Below, piece by piece: positions 56,726 through 64,000 of a stretch of 64,000 nt of DNA. Source of the DNA: Microbacterium maritypicum (lineage in GTDB: Bacteria > Actinomycetota > Actinomycetes > Actinomycetales > Microbacteriaceae); assembly GCF_008868125.1 (NCBI RefSeq), contig NZ_WAAQ01000001.1, positions 682,001 to 746,000 on the forward strand, in the 5' to 3' direction. Numbering within the stretch: the first letter of the stretch is position 1; each line of letters opens with the position of its first letter. The position numbers were made by a program, and so were the translations under genes. Below the pieces are notes generated by a model that searched no databases, was not told the origin of the DNA, and saw only the letters and a list, made by a program, of their open reading frames with translations.

Positions 56726-56772
56726 TGGGCCCCGTGGGGCTCGAACCCACGACCCGCGGATTAAAAGTCCGA
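56726..56772 (-). pseudogene. 3' half of a disrupted tRNA-Lys(TTT)
   Basis: The minus strand reads CGGACTTTTAATCCG, then GCGGGTC and the intact T-arm GTGGG-TTCGAGC-CCCAC, then acceptor strand GGGGCCC and discriminator A. The anticodon loop CTTTTAA gives TTT (Lys). The 5' side stops matching a tRNA at the bottom of the anticodon stem (T opposite C). The matching acceptor GGGCCCC and D-arm are nowhere nearby. The break at the anticodon stem-loop is a typical tyrosine-recombinase crossover site, so this is taken as the left attachment site of the element. Confidence 0.85.
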
Positions 56773-56882
56773 TGTTAACTTCGTACTTTGCCGTGGTGTC
56801 TATACCGTCATTGCGGATCCTTCGGAGCTCCTGATATGTTCGGCGTATACACACAGCCAGCTATTGTCTAGACGGAGAATCC

Positions 56883-57992
56883 GTGCGCATACAGATCATC
56901 GGCAGGACGTCGTCCGGGGTTCCCGTTCGATGGGCGATCCTGGGAGCCAATGACGAACTCGTGGTTGAGCCCAATCGCTACCTGGCTTATCTCGAGAACA
57001 TCCGTCGTTCTCCAAACACTTTGCGGGCGACTGCCTACGACCTCCGTCTCTACACAGAATTCCTCGAGGAAACGAAGAAGACGCTCGACGATGTGACTAA
57101 CGAGGTACTCGCCGCGTTCGCTCGCTGGCTGCGCGACCCATCTGAGAACGTCACGGTGGTTGATGAGTCGGAAACCGTTCTCGCGGATAGCAGCGTGAAT
57201 CGAGCACTTTCCTCAGTTGCAGCCTTCTACGCGTTCCTCGGTTCCCTGGGGCCGGGAGCGCCGGGCGAGCGCGGATTCCAGCGGCTGAAGGATACGGCCG
57301 CCACGGTGCGGCGACCGCGCTTCACGGTCGTCGACAGCGTTGGACGGGCGAACAAGCATCGGACGAGGCGAGTCTTAGGCCCGAGGATCCGGCGCAAGAA
57401 GAAGCGTACGAAGGTCCTTCGCCTTGATCAGGTTTTGGAGATCGTGCATGCATGCCGAGATCACCGCGACCGCCTTTTCATCATGATGGCGTTCTCAACC
57501 GGGATGAGGATGGGACAGATTCTCGGGCTGAAGCATGAGGATATAGACACGCGCGTCGCGACCCTGACAGTAGAGGCTCGTAACAACAATCCCAACGGTG
57601 CGCGGTCGAAGCGCCATGGGACCGGAACGATTCCGATCTCCGAGCAGCTTGCGCGTCTCTACATCGAGTACATGCACGAACAATACGGTTACATTGACAG
57701 CGAGTTCGTGTTCATCGACTTTCGCACCCTGCAGCCCATGAATGCCCGCGCGGGTCACTCTATAGTCGAGCGCCTACGACGAGCTTCCGGCGTGCACGAC
57801 TGGTCGCTCCATACGCTGCGCCATAGCTTCGTCACGATGTGCCAGAAGTCCGGCATGTCCCCGAAGGTCATCAGCAAACTTGTGTTCCACGCGAGCGTGG
57901 CGACGACGATGGACATTTACTCCCATCTCGATGTCGAGGATCTCAGACAAGTCCTCATCGAGTCGGGAGCTTGGGAGGTCGAGTCGTCTTGA
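56883..57992 (+). CDS. Tyrosine recombinase, TnpA-like
   Basis: A 369-residue integrase. A SAM-like core-binding domain (about 25-120) precedes the catalytic domain. Active residues are Arg209 in STGMRMGQILGLK, the HTLRHSF box, the second His position in LVFHASVATT, and nucleophile Tyr346 in MDIYSHL. It would cut and rejoin the tRNA-Lys target together with the TnpB-like partner. GTG at 56883 follows GGAGAA. The stop overlaps the next start (TTGA). Base composition is lower in GC than the neighbouring core genes. Confidence 0.9.
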   Translation: MRIQIIGRTSSGVPVRWAILGANDELVVEPNRYLAYLENIRRSPNTLRATAYDLRLYTEFLEETKKTLDDVTNEVLAAFARWLRDPSENVTVVDESETVLADSSVNRALSSVAAFYAFLGSLGPGAPGERGFQRLKDTAATVRRPRFTVVDSVGRANKHRTRRVLGPRIRRKKKRTKVLRLDQVLEIVHACRDHRDRLFIMMAFSTGMRMGQILGLKHEDIDTRVATLTVEARNNNPNGARSKRHGTGTIPISEQLARLYIEYMHEQYGYIDSEFVFIDFRTLQPMNARAGHSIVERLRRASGVHDWSLHTLRHSFVTMCQKSGMSPKVISKLVFHASVATTMDIYSHLDVEDLRQVLIESGAWEVESS

Positions 57993-60007
57993 GTTCAGAT
58001 GATGCTCGGATCTCCCCGGTCGCGACTGGTGGCAGCAGCGAAGGATCCTCCGAAGATGCTCGATACCTCGCTTGGCTCGTCGAGGAGACGCCGGAGGACT
58101 ACCGTCGGCTTAAATTCCCGCCCGATCCGCGCGGCCTGTACTCGCCAAGACCGTGCAGCGTGAGTGGTTGCGAAAGGGGCTCCTCGTCCACCGGACTTAC
58201 TCTTTGCAGGATCCATCGGGAACAGTACTTGGGGGGAGAGTGGTCAAGCCTAGGGGAGTTTCTGCCCAACGCTGCTGTAGCAAAGCCGGTTGTCGACAAG
58301 GGGCATGGTGGCAATTCGGGGAAGGGGATCATCAACCTCGAAGCTTGCTCCGCTGAGATCCTGCGTGCAGAGCTCGCGTTCGTGATCAGCCGAAGGGGCA
58401 CCGGGGAGTACGGCGCCGCCTTCGTTGTAAGCACGATAAACGCATTCATTCAGCGGCTCGAGGCAGTCGGCGTGACGTCGATTCGTGATCTTGACTCCGA
58501 GCTGAAGCGCACCGAGGTGATAGGCGGTACGAAGAGCTACCTACAGCCGTTCGGAATGTATATGAAGGAGTTCCCGAGCTGGATACGGATGGCGGCGGGC
58601 GACGTCAACGTCAAGCGGCGCCTCGGCCGTATTCGTGGTGGCTCACACCGCTGGTCGGCCGGACAGCTCATCGAGATCCCCTGGCTGCGCCAAATGGTTT
58701 CACGCTGGGTGACATACAGGCTCAACACGCGCGCCGCGTCACCGCAGCACATCGGAGCACAGGAACGGCACCTCGTTCTGTTCGCCGAGTGGGCAAAGAA
58801 GAAGGGGCTGGCTGAACCGGAAGACCTAACAAGGGACCTGCTCCTGGCATGGATTGGCAAGGTCAACAGCATGCAGAACGAGGACGGGAGGCCTCAGTCT
58901 GCGGGGTGGAGAAGCAAACGGATCGCGGCGGTGAGCGCACTGATTCAGTTCGCTCGGATAGAAGTCACGGACCGAATCCCTGGCAACGCGTTCTATCTGC
59001 CCGGAGAGCTGCCCGAAAGAGATAAGCCGAAACCGCGTTTCCTGGAACCCCGAGTCATCGACACATTGCGGAGGCAGGAAAACCTCGCACTGATCTCAGA
59101 CCCGTCGCATCGCACCGCCATGCTGATAATGATGCAAGTCGGGCTTCGCGCGGGTCACACATGCAGCCTGCCGTTCGATTGCCTCATCGATCTGAACCGA
59201 GGCGCGCCGAACAACAAGTGGGCTTTGTCATTTCTCGACACGAAGTCGAACGAAGTGTTGACCGTTCCTGTGGAGCCTCTCGTCGCGGCGGCCATTCGCG
59301 AGCAGCAATCGCGAGCTATCGAAACCTCCAAATCGATGGGGATGGCGCACGCTGAGTATCTGTTCCCGAACCCAGTGGCGCCCATAACGAAAAGACTGGC
59401 GCCGGAGCGGCTCAGCACGGTGCTCAAAGACTGGGTTCGGAAACTGGACGTTCGTGAGCATACGGGAGAACTTGTCGTAGTCACAGCTCATCGTTTTCGA
59501 CACACGTTCGCAACGGAGATGCTGGCGAAGGGCGTGCCGATGGAGATCGTGCAGAAGCTGCTCGGTCATCGCAGCATCGCATCCACCGAGATCTATGCAC
59601 ACGCGACGGATACGCTCGTTCGCGCAGAGTGGGAAAAGGCCAAGTTCATCAACGTGCAGGGGGAGCTGCTGGATCTACCCACCGGAGAAGCTGCAGAGGC
59701 AGAGTTCCTCTTGTACAAGATCGGTAGGGCCGTGCAACCTCTTCCGAACGGTTGGTGCGGGCTTCCGATTCAACAATCATGTCCCCATGCGAATGCGTGC
59801 TTGGACAACTGCCCCAACTTCTTGACTTCCGCGGCGTTTCTTCCAGTCCACGAAGCGCAGAGTGCAGATTTTGACAGGACGATCAGCGCCGCGGAGAAAG
59901 CCGGACATCTTCGAATCATCGAGATCAATCGCCGCCCGAACGATAACCTGAAACGGATAATCGCGACCATCCGTGAACAGGAGGTGGAGGATGCGACCGA
60001 ACCGTGA
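57989..60007 (+). CDS. Large tyrosine recombinase, TnpB-like
   Basis: A 672-residue recombinase. An N-terminal Cys/His cluster (CSVSGCERG...LCRIHREQYL, about 56-80) looks zinc-binding. The catalytic domain has Arg387 in QVGLRAGH, AHRFRHTFATEML, LLGHRSIAST and Tyr536 in EIYAHAT. A C-terminal extension holds a second Cys cluster (WCGLP, CPHANACLDNCPN). It is far longer than phage integrases but matches TnpB of Tn554. TTG at 57989 lies nine bases after GGAGG and overlaps the tnpA stop. The frame opening at 57839 is inside tnpA. Confidence 0.88.
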   Translation: MSSDDARISPVATGGSSEGSSEDARYLAWLVEETPEDYRRLKFPPDPRGLYSPRPCSVSGCERGSSSTGLTLCRIHREQYLGGEWSSLGEFLPNAAVAKPVVDKGHGGNSGKGIINLEACSAEILRAELAFVISRRGTGEYGAAFVVSTINAFIQRLEAVGVTSIRDLDSELKRTEVIGGTKSYLQPFGMYMKEFPSWIRMAAGDVNVKRRLGRIRGGSHRWSAGQLIEIPWLRQMVSRWVTYRLNTRAASPQHIGAQERHLVLFAEWAKKKGLAEPEDLTRDLLLAWIGKVNSMQNEDGRPQSAGWRSKRIAAVSALIQFARIEVTDRIPGNAFYLPGELPERDKPKPRFLEPRVIDTLRRQENLALISDPSHRTAMLIMMQVGLRAGHTCSLPFDCLIDLNRGAPNNKWALSFLDTKSNEVLTVPVEPLVAAAIREQQSRAIETSKSMGMAHAEYLFPNPVAPITKRLAPERLSTVLKDWVRKLDVREHTGELVVVTAHRFRHTFATEMLAKGVPMEIVQKLLGHRSIASTEIYAHATDTLVRAEWEKAKFINVQGELLDLPTGEAAEAEFLLYKIGRAVQPLPNGWCGLPIQQSCPHANACLDNCPNFLTSAAFLPVHEAQSADFDRTISAAEKAGHLRIIEINRRPNDNLKRIIATIREQEVEDATEP

Positions 60008-60404
60008 GGATCGAGTCGCCGTGCTGCAAGGCGCTAACAGACGAAAGTCTGCAAGGGCCAGAGCGGATGTTGAGCTTGGTGTCAGCGTGCTCAGAAAACG
60101 CGGTGCCACTATCAACGTGAACGCGGTAGCTCGCGAATCCGGAGTCTCGAGAGGCTTCATTTACACGCACGAAGATCTTCGCCAACTCATTGCCAAGGCT
60201 AGCGAGGAGTCGAAGGTTGGGATGCGACGAGTGGCGGCGACACCGAACGAGAAGTCGCTGACGGCCAGGCTTGCGACCGCGCTTCGCGAGATCGAGAAAT
60301 TGAAACTCGCCAAGAAGAAGCTTGAGGATGAGAAATCAGAACTCGTGGCGCGAGTAGAGAACCTGACAGCCCAACTCTTCGATCAGGAAGCACGAAGGCG
60401 TTAA
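59991..60404 (+). CDS. TnpC-like accessory protein (DUF6262 type)
   Basis: A 137-residue basic protein. An N-terminal helix-turn-helix-like region (INVNAVARESGVSRGFIYTHEDLRQLI) resembles TetR DNA-binding heads. The C-terminal half is a coiled coil (ALREIEKLKLAKKKLEDEKSELVARV). It matches TnpC of Tn554, which helps choose insertion orientation. ATG at 59991 has the strong site GGAGGTGGAGG directly before it. The start overlaps the TnpB-like gene end. Its stop is 13 bases from the 3' end of the intron-containing tRNA. Confidence 0.8.
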   Translation: MRPNREDRVAVLQGANRRKSARARADVELGVSVLRKRGATINVNAVARESGVSRGFIYTHEDLRQLIAKASEESKVGMRRVAATPNEKSLTARLATALREIEKLKLAKKKLEDEKSELVARVENLTAQLFDQEARRR

Positions 60405-60416
60405 GGCCAAGACAGT

Positions 60417-60738
60417 GCCCCCACAGGGGCTCGAACCCTGGACCCACGGATTAACCTGCTGCACTGAGTTTCCCCAGCCACCGTCACCGGCTTGCAGTCT
60501 GGACTATATCTTCACCTTCGGCCGAGCCGGTCAGGTGCGCCGCGTGTAGTCTCTGAGGTTCCCTTGCGGTTACCTGCTGATTGCCCAATCCATCGGATTT
60601 TCACTGCCCTCGCGGGCGAGTACCTCAGGCTCTAAGGGTGTTCCAGCATATAGCGGCGGTCATCTGACGCATTTCTACGCCAGCGCTCCATTTTTTGTGT
60701 TGAAGTCCGTTGCTCTAACCAACTGAGCTATAGGGGCG
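60417..60738 (-). tRNA. tRNA-Lys(TTT) interrupted by a group I intron
   Basis: Exon 1 is 60738-60704 (35 nt) and exon 2 is 60455-60417 (39 nt) on the minus strand. Joined, they form a complete cloverleaf: acceptor GCCCCTA/TGGGGGC with one G-U pair, D-arm GCTC/GAGC, anticodon stem ACGGA/TCCGT with loop CTTTTAA, T-arm CAGGG-TTCGAGC-CCCTG and discriminator A. The anticodon is TTT (Lys), and the intron falls after its first base. Acceptor bases differ from the broken tRNA-Lys at 56726, so this is a separate gene, not its missing half. Confidence 0.88.
60456..60703 (-). ncRNA. Group I self-splicing intron in tRNA-Lys
   Basis: A 248-nt intron without an internal gene. P1 pairs exon CUU plus CA with UGGAG, giving the U-G pair at the 5' splice site. 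P2 is CUGGCGUA/UGCGUCAG with a GAAA loop. P3 pairs CGCCG with CGGCG. The core strand is AAUCAGCAGGUAACC, with P6 containing CC-GCAA-GG. P7 pairs GACUA with UAGUC, preceded by the diagnostic AAGAUA of J8/7. P8 is CACCU/AGGUG. P9 hairpins have GUGA and GAAA loops, and the last base is G. The elements occur in canonical order. Confidence 0.9.
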
Positions 60739-60837
60739 GACCCAGCCTAGCAACTCGAACGCGCTTGGAGGTCCTTCAGCGGCTTCGAGGTGAGCATTGA
60801 GCGCGCAGACCCAGCGGGTGACGCGACGGAACGCAGG

Positions 60838-61173
60838 CTATCGCGTTGTCACGTCCGGGAGATCCGAAGGCAACAGCTTGTGGAGCGGCACATCAAGCAC
60901 CTGCGACAAGGCGACCATCACGAACAGCGTCGGATTCGCCGGGGTGTGGGCCTGCGACCGACCTCGCTCGTAGGCTTGATACGTGTATCTCGTGAGGCCA
61001 GCTCGGTAAGCGACGGCCTCCTGTGAGAGGCCGGACGCGATCCGAGCACGATGGAGGTTCACACCGAGTTCGCCGGCGAAGGCTTCCCACTCTGCGCTGT
61101 GACTCGCCGGCTTCTTTCCCACACTTCTAGCCTGACGAGAAGCCTTCCTCGTATGGCCTTTCTGATATGGCAT
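60838..61173 (-). CDS. XRE-family helix-turn-helix regulator
   Basis: A 111-residue protein: a basic N-terminus, then a Cro/C1-type HTH (LHRARIASGLSQEAVAYRAGLTRYTYQAYERGR), then a short dimerisation tail (PTLFVMVALSQVLDVPLHKLLPSD). It is divergent from the 61317 operon and probably controls it or the element. I start at ATG 61173; the longer frame adds a Cys/Trp-rich stretch that looks non-coding. TATGGC repeats surround its start codon. Confidence 0.82.
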   Translation of the reverse strand: MPYQKGHTRKASRQARSVGKKPASHSAEWEAFAGELGVNLHRARIASGLSQEAVAYRAGLTRYTYQAYERGRSQAHTPANPTLFVMVALSQVLDVPLHKLLPSDLPDVTTR

Positions 61174-61192
61174 AATCGTGGACAGCCATACG
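61150..61192. promoter_or_regulatory. TATGGC repeat cluster at the XRE gene start
   Basis: CGTATGGC (61150-61157), ATATGGCAT (61165-61173) and the inverse AGCCATACG (61184-61192) are spaced 15 and about 19 bp apart around the start codon. They may be operator copies for the encoded repressor. Confidence 0.35.
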
Positions 61193-61316
61193 AAACATTC
61201 ACTCCATCGACAGACGCAACCGCGCGTCTCGACCTGCACGTGTGCCGCTGCGCATCGGCTCCGGGTCGCCTCGATGCGTAGGTCCCGTTCAGGTCGACCC
61301 CGATTGTTGAGTAGCA

Positions 61317-61718
61317 GTGATTGATTCGCGACCGATCTGGTGGAGTGCCACAGAGGTCGAGGCTCCTCGGGCTTGGATCGAAGCGTTTGACGCGCTCACC
61401 GAAGGTGCATCGGTGGGCCGGCGCGGTCTTGCCGCGGGCATCTTCATCGCGCGCGTGCGCCGCCGCACCGGACGCGGCCCAACGTTCTCGGAGCTCTTCT
61501 CCGAACTATTCAAAGACGAGCCTCTCCACCCGGAGTGGCCTGCCGGTCTGGCCTATCCCGTGCGCGCGAGCATTCACCACGCGTTCCGCCTCCACATCGC
61601 GATTCAATGGAGACGCAGCGGATGGATCAGCTGGGATCCCGGAGTGGAGCGCAGCCTTCGAGTGGGACCGGCGTTCCGAGAGCAGTCACGAGCCCGGCAG
61701 GCAGCGAGGTCGAGGTGA
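61317..61718 (+). CDS. Hypothetical island protein
   Basis: A 133-residue protein starting GTG, with the segment GLAAGIFIARVRRRTGRGPTFSELFSELF and several conserved-looking Trp (SGWISWDPG). I do not recognise the family. It is the first gene of a coupled operon, its stop overlapping the metallophosphoesterase start (GTGA). A rival frame at 61321 has poorer composition and no coupling. Confidence 0.6.
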   Translation: MIDSRPIWWSATEVEAPRAWIEAFDALTEGASVGRRGLAAGIFIARVRRRTGRGPTFSELFSELFKDEPLHPEWPAGLAYPVRASIHHAFRLHIAIQWRRSGWISWDPGVERSLRVGPAFREQSRARQAARSR

Positions 61719-62737
61719 AGGCACTTGAGCACACGACGACCATCACGCTGCCGGACGAGCGGGTGGCGGTTTGTGGCGACTGGCACGGGAACCTTGGATG
61801 GGCGCGGATGCTGGCAAGGGCCCTCCCTGCCCTCGCGCCCGACGTGACCACGATGCTGCACCTCGGCGACTGGTGGATGTCGCCGGCGGCGACCGACGAG
61901 GTCTTCGCCGAGACGAACATCGAGCGCATCTACGTCACCCTCGGCAACCATGAACCCTGGGGCGAGATCACCCCTCTCCTCAACGAACATCCAGGCGCAG
62001 CCGTTCGCGTCTCCGACATCATCTGGCTACTCCCCCGCCCGGCGCGCCTATCCATCGGGGGACGTCGTGTTCTGTCCCTCGGCGGTGCCGCGTCCGTCGA
62101 CCGGCAGTCGCGGATCGAAGGTCTGACGTGGTGGCCGGACGAGGCCATCAGCGACCAAAACGTAGCCGAGGCCAGCGCCGGTGGTCCTGCTGACTTGATG
62201 CTCACCCACGAGTCGCCTGCGGGCACTCCTGTCCGGCCCGTCCGGGAGATCCTGCGCACGAACCCGCACGGCTTCCCGAAGACCGCGCTCGACGCGTCCG
62301 CGGCATCTCGAGCTAGGGTCGCAGAAGTCTGGGATGCGGTGCGCCCAGAGCTGCTCACGCACGGGCACCTTCATGCGCCGGGCGGCGGTAAGACCGAGGA
62401 CGGCCGCCGCGTCGCAAGCATGGGCCGCGATGGGCAGGAGGGGAATCTCGGGATCCTCGACATGAAGACGTTGATGACGGCGACGCCGAGCCTCGCCATC
62501 ATCCGCGGGATGGCAGATCAGTGGGAGGAGGACTACCTCGCTCGCGAGAAGCGCGCGAAGGGGGCCGCCGAGGCACTGCACTCCGGGGTACTTGACGGGC
62601 TCTCCCCGAGTCCCGCGGCTCTCCAGGACGCTCAGGATTACGTCGACGGCCGGCGCACCCTTGACGAGATGATTGAAGACGTCCGTCGACGCCACACTCG
62701 ACGGGAGAACGAGAGGCGCGACGATGACGGACGATGA
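61715..62737 (+). CDS. Island-encoded metallophosphoesterase
   Basis: A 340-residue calcineurin-like phosphoesterase. Metal motifs appear in order: VCGDWHGNLGWA (Asp, His), LHLGDWWM, TLGNHEPW, MLTHESPAGTP and LTHGHLHAPGGG. The C-terminal 90 residues form a charged tail with no motif. It differs strongly from the core enzyme at 35812 and resembles phosphoesterases seen on phage and island DNA, where substrates are unknown. GTG 61715 overlaps the previous stop. Confidence 0.8.
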   Translation: MKALEHTTTITLPDERVAVCGDWHGNLGWARMLARALPALAPDVTTMLHLGDWWMSPAATDEVFAETNIERIYVTLGNHEPWGEITPLLNEHPGAAVRVSDIIWLLPRPARLSIGGRRVLSLGGAASVDRQSRIEGLTWWPDEAISDQNVAEASAGGPADLMLTHESPAGTPVRPVREILRTNPHGFPKTALDASAASRARVAEVWDAVRPELLTHGHLHAPGGGKTEDGRRVASMGRDGQEGNLGILDMKTLMTATPSLAIIRGMADQWEEDYLAREKRAKGAAEALHSGVLDGLSPSPAALQDAQDYVDGRRTLDEMIEDVRRRHTRRENERRDDDGR

Positions 62738-63116
62738 GTCGCCGAGCCCCTGGGCCGAGATCGTCGGCCCCTGCTACACGGTGGTGTCTATCGCCCGCAC
62801 ACTCGAATGGACATCCGAGCAGGTGACTGCGGCCGTCGAATCACTCTCTCTCCTCGAGCTCGAGACAGACGACGGCGTTCTCCTTTACCCGGCATTCCAG
62901 ATTGCCGACCGTCACGTCGTCGACGGCGTCGGAGATGTCCTTCATGTGCTGAGAACAGGGACCAAATCGACGTGGACGTGGGCGCAGTGGCTCAACACGC
63001 GAGTCGACGACGAGACCGGCGAGGAAACACTCAGCGCCATCGAACAGTTACGCGCCGGGCAGATCGACGACGTCCTCCGCGATGATTACCAAGCCGCAGC
63101 GGCGTGGACTAGCTGA
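62724..63116 (+). CDS. MbcA/ParS-like small protein
   Basis: A 130-residue acidic protein. The C-terminal part TWAQWLNTRVDDETGEETLS followed by AIEQLRAGQIDDVLRD resembles the toxin-binding (MbcA/ParS) domain of RES-Xre antitoxins (LNTPNP...EALR.GR.EEVL). No RES toxin gene is visible beside it, so an antitoxin role is only a suggestion. ATG 62724 overlaps the metallophosphoesterase end by 14 nt. Confidence 0.6.
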   Translation: MTDDESPSPWAEIVGPCYTVVSIARTLEWTSEQVTAAVESLSLLELETDDGVLLYPAFQIADRHVVDGVGDVLHVLRTGTKSTWTWAQWLNTRVDDETGEETLSAIEQLRAGQIDDVLRDDYQAAAAWTS

Positions 63117-63149
63117 GTGCTCTGCGTGCCGGAGCATGCCGCTGTCGTT

Positions 63150-63390
63150 GCCATGCAGAGCAACCGCTCTTCTTCCACGCCGGCAGCACTAGGGGGCGGC
63201 TTCTGGCCACGGAGAGCCACGTATTGGCCGTTCTGCGGACCCGGTACGGCCAGCCCCTGAACCCAGGCGCTATGGCTGAACACCGCGCTGACTGATGAGG
63301 GCCTGCCGCTCCATCGAGGCGCTGCGCGCGAAACGTCTCGACGAGGTGGCGCGCGATGCCGAGCGAGATGCATCGGCGTGGCGCTCATGA
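63150..63390 (+). pseudogene. Decayed second copy of the MbcA/ParS-like gene
   Basis: Fragments in shifted frames align with the C-terminal half of the preceding gene: EQPLFFHA, VLAVLRT, then ALWLNTALTDEG, then RSIEALRAKRLDEVARDAE ending ASAWRS and a stop. The intact gene has LLYPA, VLHVLRT, QWLNT and AIEQLRAGQIDDVLRDDYQ ending AAWTS. At least one or two frameshifts separate the blocks. Confidence 0.55.
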
Positions 63391-63623
63391 AGCTACGTGT
63401 TCAAAGTCCATTCTCTGCGCCGAGCTCTCCTCGAGCGTGGAGAACTTTCGGGTTCGACTGCACTGGAGTTTTGGTCTGCAGGGGTGCGACCTCGGTCCCG
63501 GAACTCCCCTTCAAATCGCGTAATAAAACCGCTGGTACTGCGTCTACTCAGTGAAGCCGACGCTGGTCCTAGGACCTGAGCTGGCTTTATCTGGGCCGCG
63601 TTCTCCCTTCAAGAGCAAGGCTC

Positions 63624-63654
63624 GCGGGTAGGGCTGCTCCCCAGCCCTACCCGC
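63624..63654. repeat. 13-bp perfect hairpin in a gene-free stretch
   Basis: GCGGGTAGGGCTG and CAGCCCTACCCGC flank CTCCC. No T-run follows. The surrounding 63391-63790 shows no gene I can support. The hairpin may be a terminator, a processed RNA end or a recombination remnant. Confidence 0.5.
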
Positions 63655-63765
63655 TGGCTCCGGCGAATCATGGGTTAGGTCCTGAGCGTCGAGGCCCCGT
63701 GGCGGCTCAACTTCCTGACGATCCCGCGCCCGTGCGGTCGCTAGCCGGTCGTCTGAATGCAGTTC

Positions 63766-63771
63766 TAGAAT
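63766..63771 (+). promoter_or_regulatory. -10 element before the final partial gene
   Basis: TAGAAT about 20 bases before the start; AAGGGGG then serves as ribosome binding site. Confidence 0.45.
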
Positions 63772-63790
63772 CACATCAAGGGGGAACCCA

Positions 63791-64000
63791 ATGCCGCATA
63801 GGCGTCGTCTTCGCAGGGAATCGACGGTCCCTTTCGACCGCGCGAGTATCGCCGTGCGAGGTTTGGGAGCAGCGCGTCGCGACGATTCGCTGACTGACTA
63901 TCTAGCGTTCGCGAACATCCAGATGGAATCTCTCGCCGACGAGCAGGCCCTTCGCGCTCAGATCACGCGGTTCAGTGACATCACCTTCGTGCACGTCACC
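63791..64000 (+). CDS. N-terminal part of a gene running off the window
   Basis: ATG at 63791 with AAGGGGG upstream opens a frame of 70 codons with no stop before the window end. The peptide starts with an Arg-rich stretch (MPHRRRLRRES) and continues LTDYLAFANIQMESLADEQALRAQITRFSDITF. No family is recognised from this part. It belongs to the accessory region. Confidence 0.5.
   Translation, partial: MPHRRRLRRESTVPFDRASIAVRGLGAARRDDSLTDYLAFANIQMESLADEQALRAQITRFSDITFVHVT

Follow-up and report, generated by a model that had tools for sequence, protein, structure and literature searches.

The DNA analysed here (the window) is a stretch of 64,000 nucleotides, C1:682001-746000 of the 3.67-Mb genome of Microbacterium maritypicum (the study genome, G000), and our subject is a genomic island that begins at window position 56775, directly beside a broken transfer RNA (tRNA) gene. 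The remnant of that gene, the 3′ part of a native tRNA-Lys(UUU) with its entire anticodon loop and T arm, is located at 56726-56774 on the minus strand. It was identified with Rfam, its tRNA score of 26.6 bits falling below the gathering score of 29, as expected of a partial gene. The original prediction, made from the letters of the window, had described a 3′ half cut at the anticodon stem-loop; the 3′ part is present, but the loop is complete and the junction is located on the 5′ side of the anticodon stem, at the 6-bp spacer CATCGG (tRNA sense; attL, 56769-56774, minus strand), which is retained from the target. At attR, the far end of the island, the spacer reads CACCGG. Next to attL is the left end of the island, an imperfect terminal inverted repeat (TIR) with the sequence TTAACTTCGTAC (56775-56786, plus strand), the right end being TTATCTACGCAG.

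Three genes follow on the plus strand, and these are the Tn554-like recombinase trio that had been predicted, with two Phage_integrase genes and one of family DUF6262. The first encodes a tnpA-like tyrosine recombinase of 369 amino acids (56883-57992; PF00589, E 4.4e-29; PF02899, E 1.7e-12), in which the R-H-R-H-Y motif was read by eye. The second, whose start was picked by comparison with relatives, encodes a large tnpB-like tyrosine recombinase of 672 amino acids (57989-60007; PF00589, E 9.1e-24), and the third a small tnpC-like protein (59985-60404; PF19776, E 3.1e-13). NCBIfam returned only general Xer-like or other recombinase models for the trio, all below cut-off, and none for the third protein. 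No further gene is found between the left end and the replacement tRNA described below, and thus there is no fourth core gene (GinC or Tfp) in this part. Tn554-related elements have a gene row of this make-up, and by this anatomy, as opposed to protein comparison with Tn554, the island element is probably Tn554-like.

The replacement starts 11 bases past the stop codon of the third trio gene. It is a tRNA-Lys(UUU) gene with a group I intron (60416-60737, minus strand; RF00028, 59 bits, E 1.7e-13), with exons at 60703-60737 and 60416-60454 and a 248-nucleotide intron (60455-60702, minus strand) between U34 and U35; a promoter-like sequence was noticed upstream by eye. Its acceptor and T-arm bases differ from those of the native fragment. 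The prediction of an entire second tRNA-Lys(UUU) with such differences is therefore confirmed, with a group I intron inside the gene, as recognised by a conserved core, a U.G pair at the 5′ splice site, a 3′-terminal G and exons that fold as a tRNA. The intron is predicted to have to splice for the tRNA to be functional. Intron-split genes of this kind are missed by tRNA finders run without an intron option.

The original prediction had placed the end of the element at 60738. This was incorrect, as the native 5′ half was found outside the window at C1:760618-760641, approximately 18 kb past the replacement tRNA, and the joined native halves fold as a normal tRNA-Lys(TTT). The island thus spans C1:738775-760617 (21,843 bp), of which 7.2 kb are inside the window (56775-64000, no strand assigned, running on to C1:760617). 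The guanine plus cytosine (GC) content of 56775-64000 is 61.2%, compared to 68.9% for window positions 1-56725; for the whole island it is 61-63% and for the surroundings 68-69%. Moreover, the empty site that had been proposed to exist in relatives was found in G028 (L152), a member of the same genus with an intact, intronless native tRNA-Lys gene at the same locus. Its right flank is 87-90% identical to that of G000 from within the tRNA outward; the left flank is 75.5% identical, and approximately 0.65 kb of G000 adjoining the tRNA has no counterpart in G028. Both halves and the empty site in a relative show that the island splits the native tRNA-Lys(UUU) gene.

It had also been suggested that the genome be searched for other tRNA-Lys(UUU) genes, and no intact one was found besides the replacement. 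The Rfam search gave 44 full tRNAs above cut-off and one fragment in G000; among the 42 tRNAs outside the window the sole tRNA-Lys type is tRNA-Lys(CUU), and the two inside it are Pro and Thr. In addition to this full tRNA typing, an exact pattern for UUU/UGU tRNAs, which odd variants could escape, was run on G000 and on three of the genomes introduced below (G107, G488 and G582). In none of the four did a further gene for the lost tRNA emerge, the matches in each of G000, G107 and G488 being the fragment and one tRNA-Thr only. AAA codons require the UUU anticodon, and the trio genes themselves use 14 AAA codons (1 + 9 + 4). Since no other gene for that tRNA was found, we infer that the substitute probably keeps the cell alive.

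Potential relatives of the island were sought through the trio. The tnpB-like protein matched 22 proteins of a protein collection at E <= 1e-3, including a 98% near-copy, and a profile was built from 17 sequences (the window protein and 16 of the 22 matches). The profile was run on 366 genomes of the genus, 398 of the family, 396 of the order and 395 of another family in the order, the sets overlapping and the last search listing matches at <= 1e-100 only. A strong trio match, defined as E <= 1e-100, was found in five distinct genomes, and the same island anatomy is present in all five: four islands are in tRNA-Lys(UUU), those of G000, G107 (34,829 bp; trio 55/56/49% identical), G488 (25,505 bp; 58/55/49%) and G1259 (24,567 bp; 46/44/47%, the third protein aligned over 64 residues only), and the fifth element, in G582 (4,739 bp; 34/32/37%), is in tRNA-Thr(UGU). 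G107, G488 and G1259 are the further trios with an intron-split tRNA for which a search had been recommended, whilst G582 carries an intact, intronless tRNA-Thr(UGU) 118 bp inside its right end. In all five the anticodon of the substitute is that of the split gene, and the substitute is oriented like the native halves and antisense to the trio. It adjoins tnpC in G000 and G107, and 118-150 bp separate it from the right end in G488, G1259 and G582. When joined, the halves from G107, G488 and G1259 (for the latter in the displayed part) form a normal tRNA-Lys(TTT) fold, as do those of G000, and those of G582 pair in the acceptor and anticodon stem when inspected by eye. A chance tRNA-like stretch was also considered as an explanation for the native fragment and was rejected, as the halves fit as a single tRNA in 5/5 islands.

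The junctions share a pattern as well. The tnpA-side spacer is native in all five islands (CATCGG three times, CAGCGG and CGTCGC) and the far-junction spacer differs from the native one in all five (CACCGG, CGTCCG, CACCGG, CGCTGC and CACCCG), where the native spacer was taken from the empty site for G000 and from stem pairing of the joined halves for the other four. Each spacer adjoins an imperfect inverted repeat resembling TTATCTACG. Neither junction rebuilds the target tRNA in any of the five islands, with a reservation on G582. There, the left end (L263:12567-12590) contains a stretch resembling the 5′ end of a tRNA-Thr, GCCTCCTTTGCTC, hence the displaced 3′ part is still called by ARAGORN; this stretch is perhaps a relic of an older, target-rebuilding mode. 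The imported spacers CACCGG, CGTCCG, CGCTGC and CACCCG resemble the anticodon stems of other tRNAs and may record a prior insertion site.

Beyond these five, seven genomes had weaker trio matches. Four were read (G186, G900, G1068 and G1104; G070, G878 and G926 were left out), and none of the four has a tRNA T-arm within 700 bases before tnpA. A scan of genome contigs covered at least 79 loci, 3 of them without a TnpA match, 4 with tnpA cut by the contig end, 24 with fewer than 700 bases before tnpA and 48 with the full stretch; a T-arm before tnpA was found at a single locus among these. This locus (L189:5700-6260), from a Mycobacterium metagenome-assembled genome, contains a distant trio with a TIR-like sequence close to tnpA; a tRNA 3′ fragment lies approximately 540 bases upstream, some 500 bases from the TIR-like sequence. 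Viral contigs gave 10 loci with partial matches only, and in plasmids there were, among the matches listed, 15 to TnpB at 27-34% identity.

A group I intron at U34|U35 is common to the four Lys substitutes. Three are of one type (type I; G000, G107 and G488) and one of another (type II; G1259), and genes of the two types have only short stretches in common. The intron of G1259 scores 38.9 bits in Rfam, below the gathering score of 50, and along its length its gene shares 87% identity with three type II genes from chromosomes. Of the 13 type I genes, 12 were aligned (a near-copy was omitted); in this alignment all acceptor pairs are preserved, the U.G pair is at the 5′ splice site as expected and 8 of 96 predicted pairs have changed on both sides. 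Across the genus, a group I intron match was found in 22/149 genomes (10 above the Rfam cut-off), comprising 12 of type I, of which two are the islands, and 10 of type II, for which the interrupted gene has the native acceptor. An intronless anticodon arm was found in 117/149 genomes, including the fragments of G000 and G107, and 12 had neither signal. Two distinct introns thus occur at the same tRNA-Lys(UUU) site outside the islands in 20 genomes (L124-L133, L135-L143 and L159). The type I gene had no match in phages, and in plasmids a single 39-base match to the 3′ end of the tRNA only.

A closer inspection of the chromosomal type I genes bears on what the original prediction had named as its own counter-evidence, namely relatives without the trio that still have the intron-bearing tRNA at the same place. 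Taken literally, such relatives exist: 10/149 genus genomes have a type I intron-bearing tRNA-Lys, no trio and at least one same flank within the approximately 7 kb fetched per side. Five of these genes are between both flanks in native orientation, three have the upstream flank only (within the fetched stretch) and two (L125 and L128) are reversed relative to the flank found. Neither trio remnants (at E 1e-3, in approximately 7 kb per side, less at contig ends) nor native half-gene relics were found beside the ten. The prediction is nevertheless not overturned, because in G000 the island contains the intron gene and is itself flanked by the two halves of another gene, which is native and intronless. 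The island introns group apart from the chromosomal ones with moderate support (86/88, and 89% of bootstrap trees). The chromosomal type I gene itself, close to the native locus, encodes a tRNA other than the native one (acceptor GCCCCTA); it might be an island relic or an insertion-immune allele.

Taken together, these data make it highly probable that the island destroys a tRNA gene and replaces it: the trio would split the single tRNA-Lys(UUU) gene and the island would supply a complete foreign substitute. This had been the central claim of the original prediction, and it is upheld by the two halves flanking the island, the empty site in G028 and the four further islands. The trio, located at one end in 5/5 islands, presumably performs the insertion, at a 6-bp site in the 5′ anticodon stem, by which the gene would be split permanently. 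The island's own tRNA-Lys(UUU), of different sequence, would then stand in for the broken gene, once splicing of the group I intron has restored a functional tRNA. The ancestral order was probably right end, tRNA, tnpC-tnpB-tnpA and left end, and cargo would have entered on one or the other side of the tRNA.

Within the window alone, a full tRNA and a 3′ fragment flanking a recombinase resemble an ordinary island that rebuilds its target, the full tRNA being the restored hybrid and the fragment marking the far end, and in the excerpts available rebuilding is described as the usual anatomy of islands in tRNA genes (PMC4383910). However, the native 5′ half is at the opposite end in 5/5 islands, which already refutes this explanation; GCCCCTA, with which the full tRNA starts, pairs with the 3′ end of that same tRNA as opposed to the fragment, and of the two only the full tRNA contains an intron. 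We therefore regard target rebuilding as barely credible here. It is very improbable, too, that the tRNA is carried for some other function, be it as an antidote to an anticodon nuclease or for codon supply, and that its match to the split gene is incidental. The islands do carry defence-type genes, and PrrC-type anticodon nucleases target tRNA-Lys according to the parts of the literature at hand (PMC2610378, PMC10865867), but substitute and split gene agree in their anticodon in 5/5 islands, including the tRNA-Thr(UGU) case, and the exact pattern search found no other gene for the lost tRNA in four genomes. A given single-copy tRNA would occur in a random segment of the same length with a chance of roughly 0.2-1% for each island, a figure that is approximate and applies to islands that are related and not independent. 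The ten chromosomal genes described above, close type I genes with a shared flank and no trio or native fragment nearby, would suit a history in which the intron-bearing tRNA is an old resident gene and the trio and fragment arrived beside it. Yet the islands of G000 and G107 contain the intron gene and are bordered by the two halves of a native gene without an intron, the empty site in G028 holds the native gene, the intron gene is at the opposite island end in G488 and G1259, and the island introns form their own group (86/88), all of which render this history very improbable.

Some observations weigh against the destruction and replacement of the tRNA gene. The evidence is sequence comparison, and the E <= 1e-100 line for a strong trio match was drawn after the genus, family and order searches. 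The tnpA-side junction of G582 is still called as tRNA-Thr by ARAGORN. Moreover, intron-aware ARAGORN detects the G000 replacement but labels it Asn(GUU), its splice choice being one base off, and gives the same label to the substitutes of G488 and G1259. We rejected tRNA-Asn(GUU) and read the substitute as Lys(UUU) because the base directly before the 3′ exon TTAATCC is G in 25/25 related genes (the preceding base varies between G, A and T), because the Lys(UUU) reading places the usual U.G pair at the 5′ splice site, because G000 has its own, separate tRNA-Asn(GUU), and because ARAGORN itself calls the G107 copy Lys(UUU). The base following the acceptor stem is A in these intron-bearing genes, which we take to fit Lys better than Asn.

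A possible parallel outside the islands was found by a phage search with the G1259 gene. The record of Gordonia phage Daredevil (NC_048021.1; L288:2998-3309, minus strand of the record) contains an unannotated tRNA, called Lys(UUU) by ARAGORN, approximately 570 bp from the integrase gene. It has fully paired stems, a T loop that begins with A and not T, and a 238-nucleotide type II-like intron at 34/35, and an attP-like core, CGGACTTTTAATCCGC, is located between it and the integrase gene. The intron scores only 15.4 bits in Rfam (E 0.46), and its identification rests on the G1259 gene, 89% of which aligns at 76% DNA identity. Daredevil was published as not encoding its own tRNA, and the intron-split gene was apparently overlooked in that account. 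We consider Daredevil a lead and not a confirmation.

As to the role of the intron, it interrupts the target 4 bp beyond the spacer, and for this reason we propose that it may hide the substitute from the island's own recombinase, masking its DNA; we put this close to an even chance, without quite reaching it. In a span of 30 positions around the spacer, chosen by us, the Lys substitutes without their introns would agree with their own targets at 24, 24, 26 and 28 positions, and in their actual state they do so at 17, 17, 19 and 19; the intronless Thr substitute of G582 matches at 20/30. The spacer of the substitute is identical to that of the target in G488 and G1259. For a plasmid, the available text of PMC10865867 speculates that its own tRNA gene may be a target for tandem integration, and this is the problem that a mask would solve. 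The rival explanation, which we rate about as plausible, is that the intron is a neutral passenger, captured with an intron-bearing allele and without a masking role. tRNA-Lys group I introns outside the islands in 20/149 genus genomes favour the passenger, since the intron may accompany a common allele, as does the chance that the type I islands share a single capture: the three type I island introns may have one ancestor (86/88), leaving perhaps two independent events. There is no intron in the Thr element, tRNA-Lys-TTT genes that the available text of PMC10865867 reports as intronless suffice for many phages using this strategy, and Daredevil forms clear plaques, which speaks against full tRNA function in that host. 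Against the passenger, two distinct intron types are found at the same site in 4/4 Lys islands and in the Daredevil case, and intronless substitutes would be near their own target (24-28 of 30).

We tentatively put forward a general account in which this actinobacterial family of trio islands makes itself indispensable through a destroyed single-copy tRNA and a sole substitute, a group I intron masking the DNA and splicing restoring the RNA. Two introns would have been recruited in the Lys islands, base divergence would serve in the Thr element, and Daredevil would have the same device. If true, the mask would show concretely how a mobile element can profit from a group I intron, and the idea can be tested directly. 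Such islands should resist loss, since loss of the substitute should be lethal, and through them foreign tRNA genes could take the place of essential ones. The destruction and replacement of tRNA genes would thereby be extended from phages to transposon-like islands.

Beyond the replacement tRNA the islands carry varied cargo, identified from a selection of open reading frames, several of which gave no family match. The region common to G000 and the G107 island (L134) contains a helix-turn-helix regulator (60838-61239, minus strand; PF13560, E 1.8e-9) and a calcineurin-like phosphoesterase with a VbhA-like C-terminus (61535-62737, plus strand; PF00149, PF18495). G000 also carries an ApeA-like HEPN protein near the right end (L144:14640-16256) and a large surface-type protein. 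The cargo of G1259 includes type I restriction-modification and a SIR2-like protein, that of G488 a Tmn-like ATPase and that of G582 ArsR and cation efflux. No phage structural families were found among 10 cargo proteins scanned in Pfam.

Lastly, we compared the islands with known systems, most of them cited from excerpts. With Tn554, SE and GInt (PMC10214605, PMC5385486) they share a pair of tyrosine recombinases accompanied by a small third protein, few chosen targets, imperfect inverted repeats and a 6-bp spacer, native on the tnpA/intA side and imported on the opposite side; SE and Tn554-related elements are described as having a 6-bp footprint without target duplication (PMC10214605). However, GInt and SE have four core genes and the island element three, and the main texts on GInt and SE make no mention of tRNA. 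Islander-type islands (PMC4383910) likewise target tRNA genes, and a displaced fragment marks their end, but they restore the target from attP, which the present islands do at neither junction, G582 being reserved. In Sinorhizobium meliloti prophages (PMC11476347) a tRNA-Leu(UAG) is cut centrally and a foreign isoacceptor is on the element; these are phage-like and from Alphaproteobacteria, and the portion of the paper at hand mentions no intron or recombinase trio. The original prediction had known of no earlier description for the Tn554 class. This holds, as the open-access literature yielded no description of Tn554-class or trio elements with tRNA replacement or of intron-bearing substitutes, but the principle has been published for actinobacteriophages as tRNA-dependent lysogeny (Guerrero-Bustamante and Hatfull 2024; PMC10865867). 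The islands resemble that system in that the tRNA gene receiving the insertion is not rebuilt and in that no second host gene for the tRNA was found in the four genomes searched. According to the accessible part of that paper, its elements are phages with a single integrase and a common core of approximately 10 bp, and the effect was shown experimentally. The islands, known from their sequences only, have a three-gene recombinase set, a 6-bp footprint and a group I intron in the Lys substitutes. What appears to be new is therefore the use of this principle by recombinase-trio islands, and the intron-bearing substitutes that they carry.

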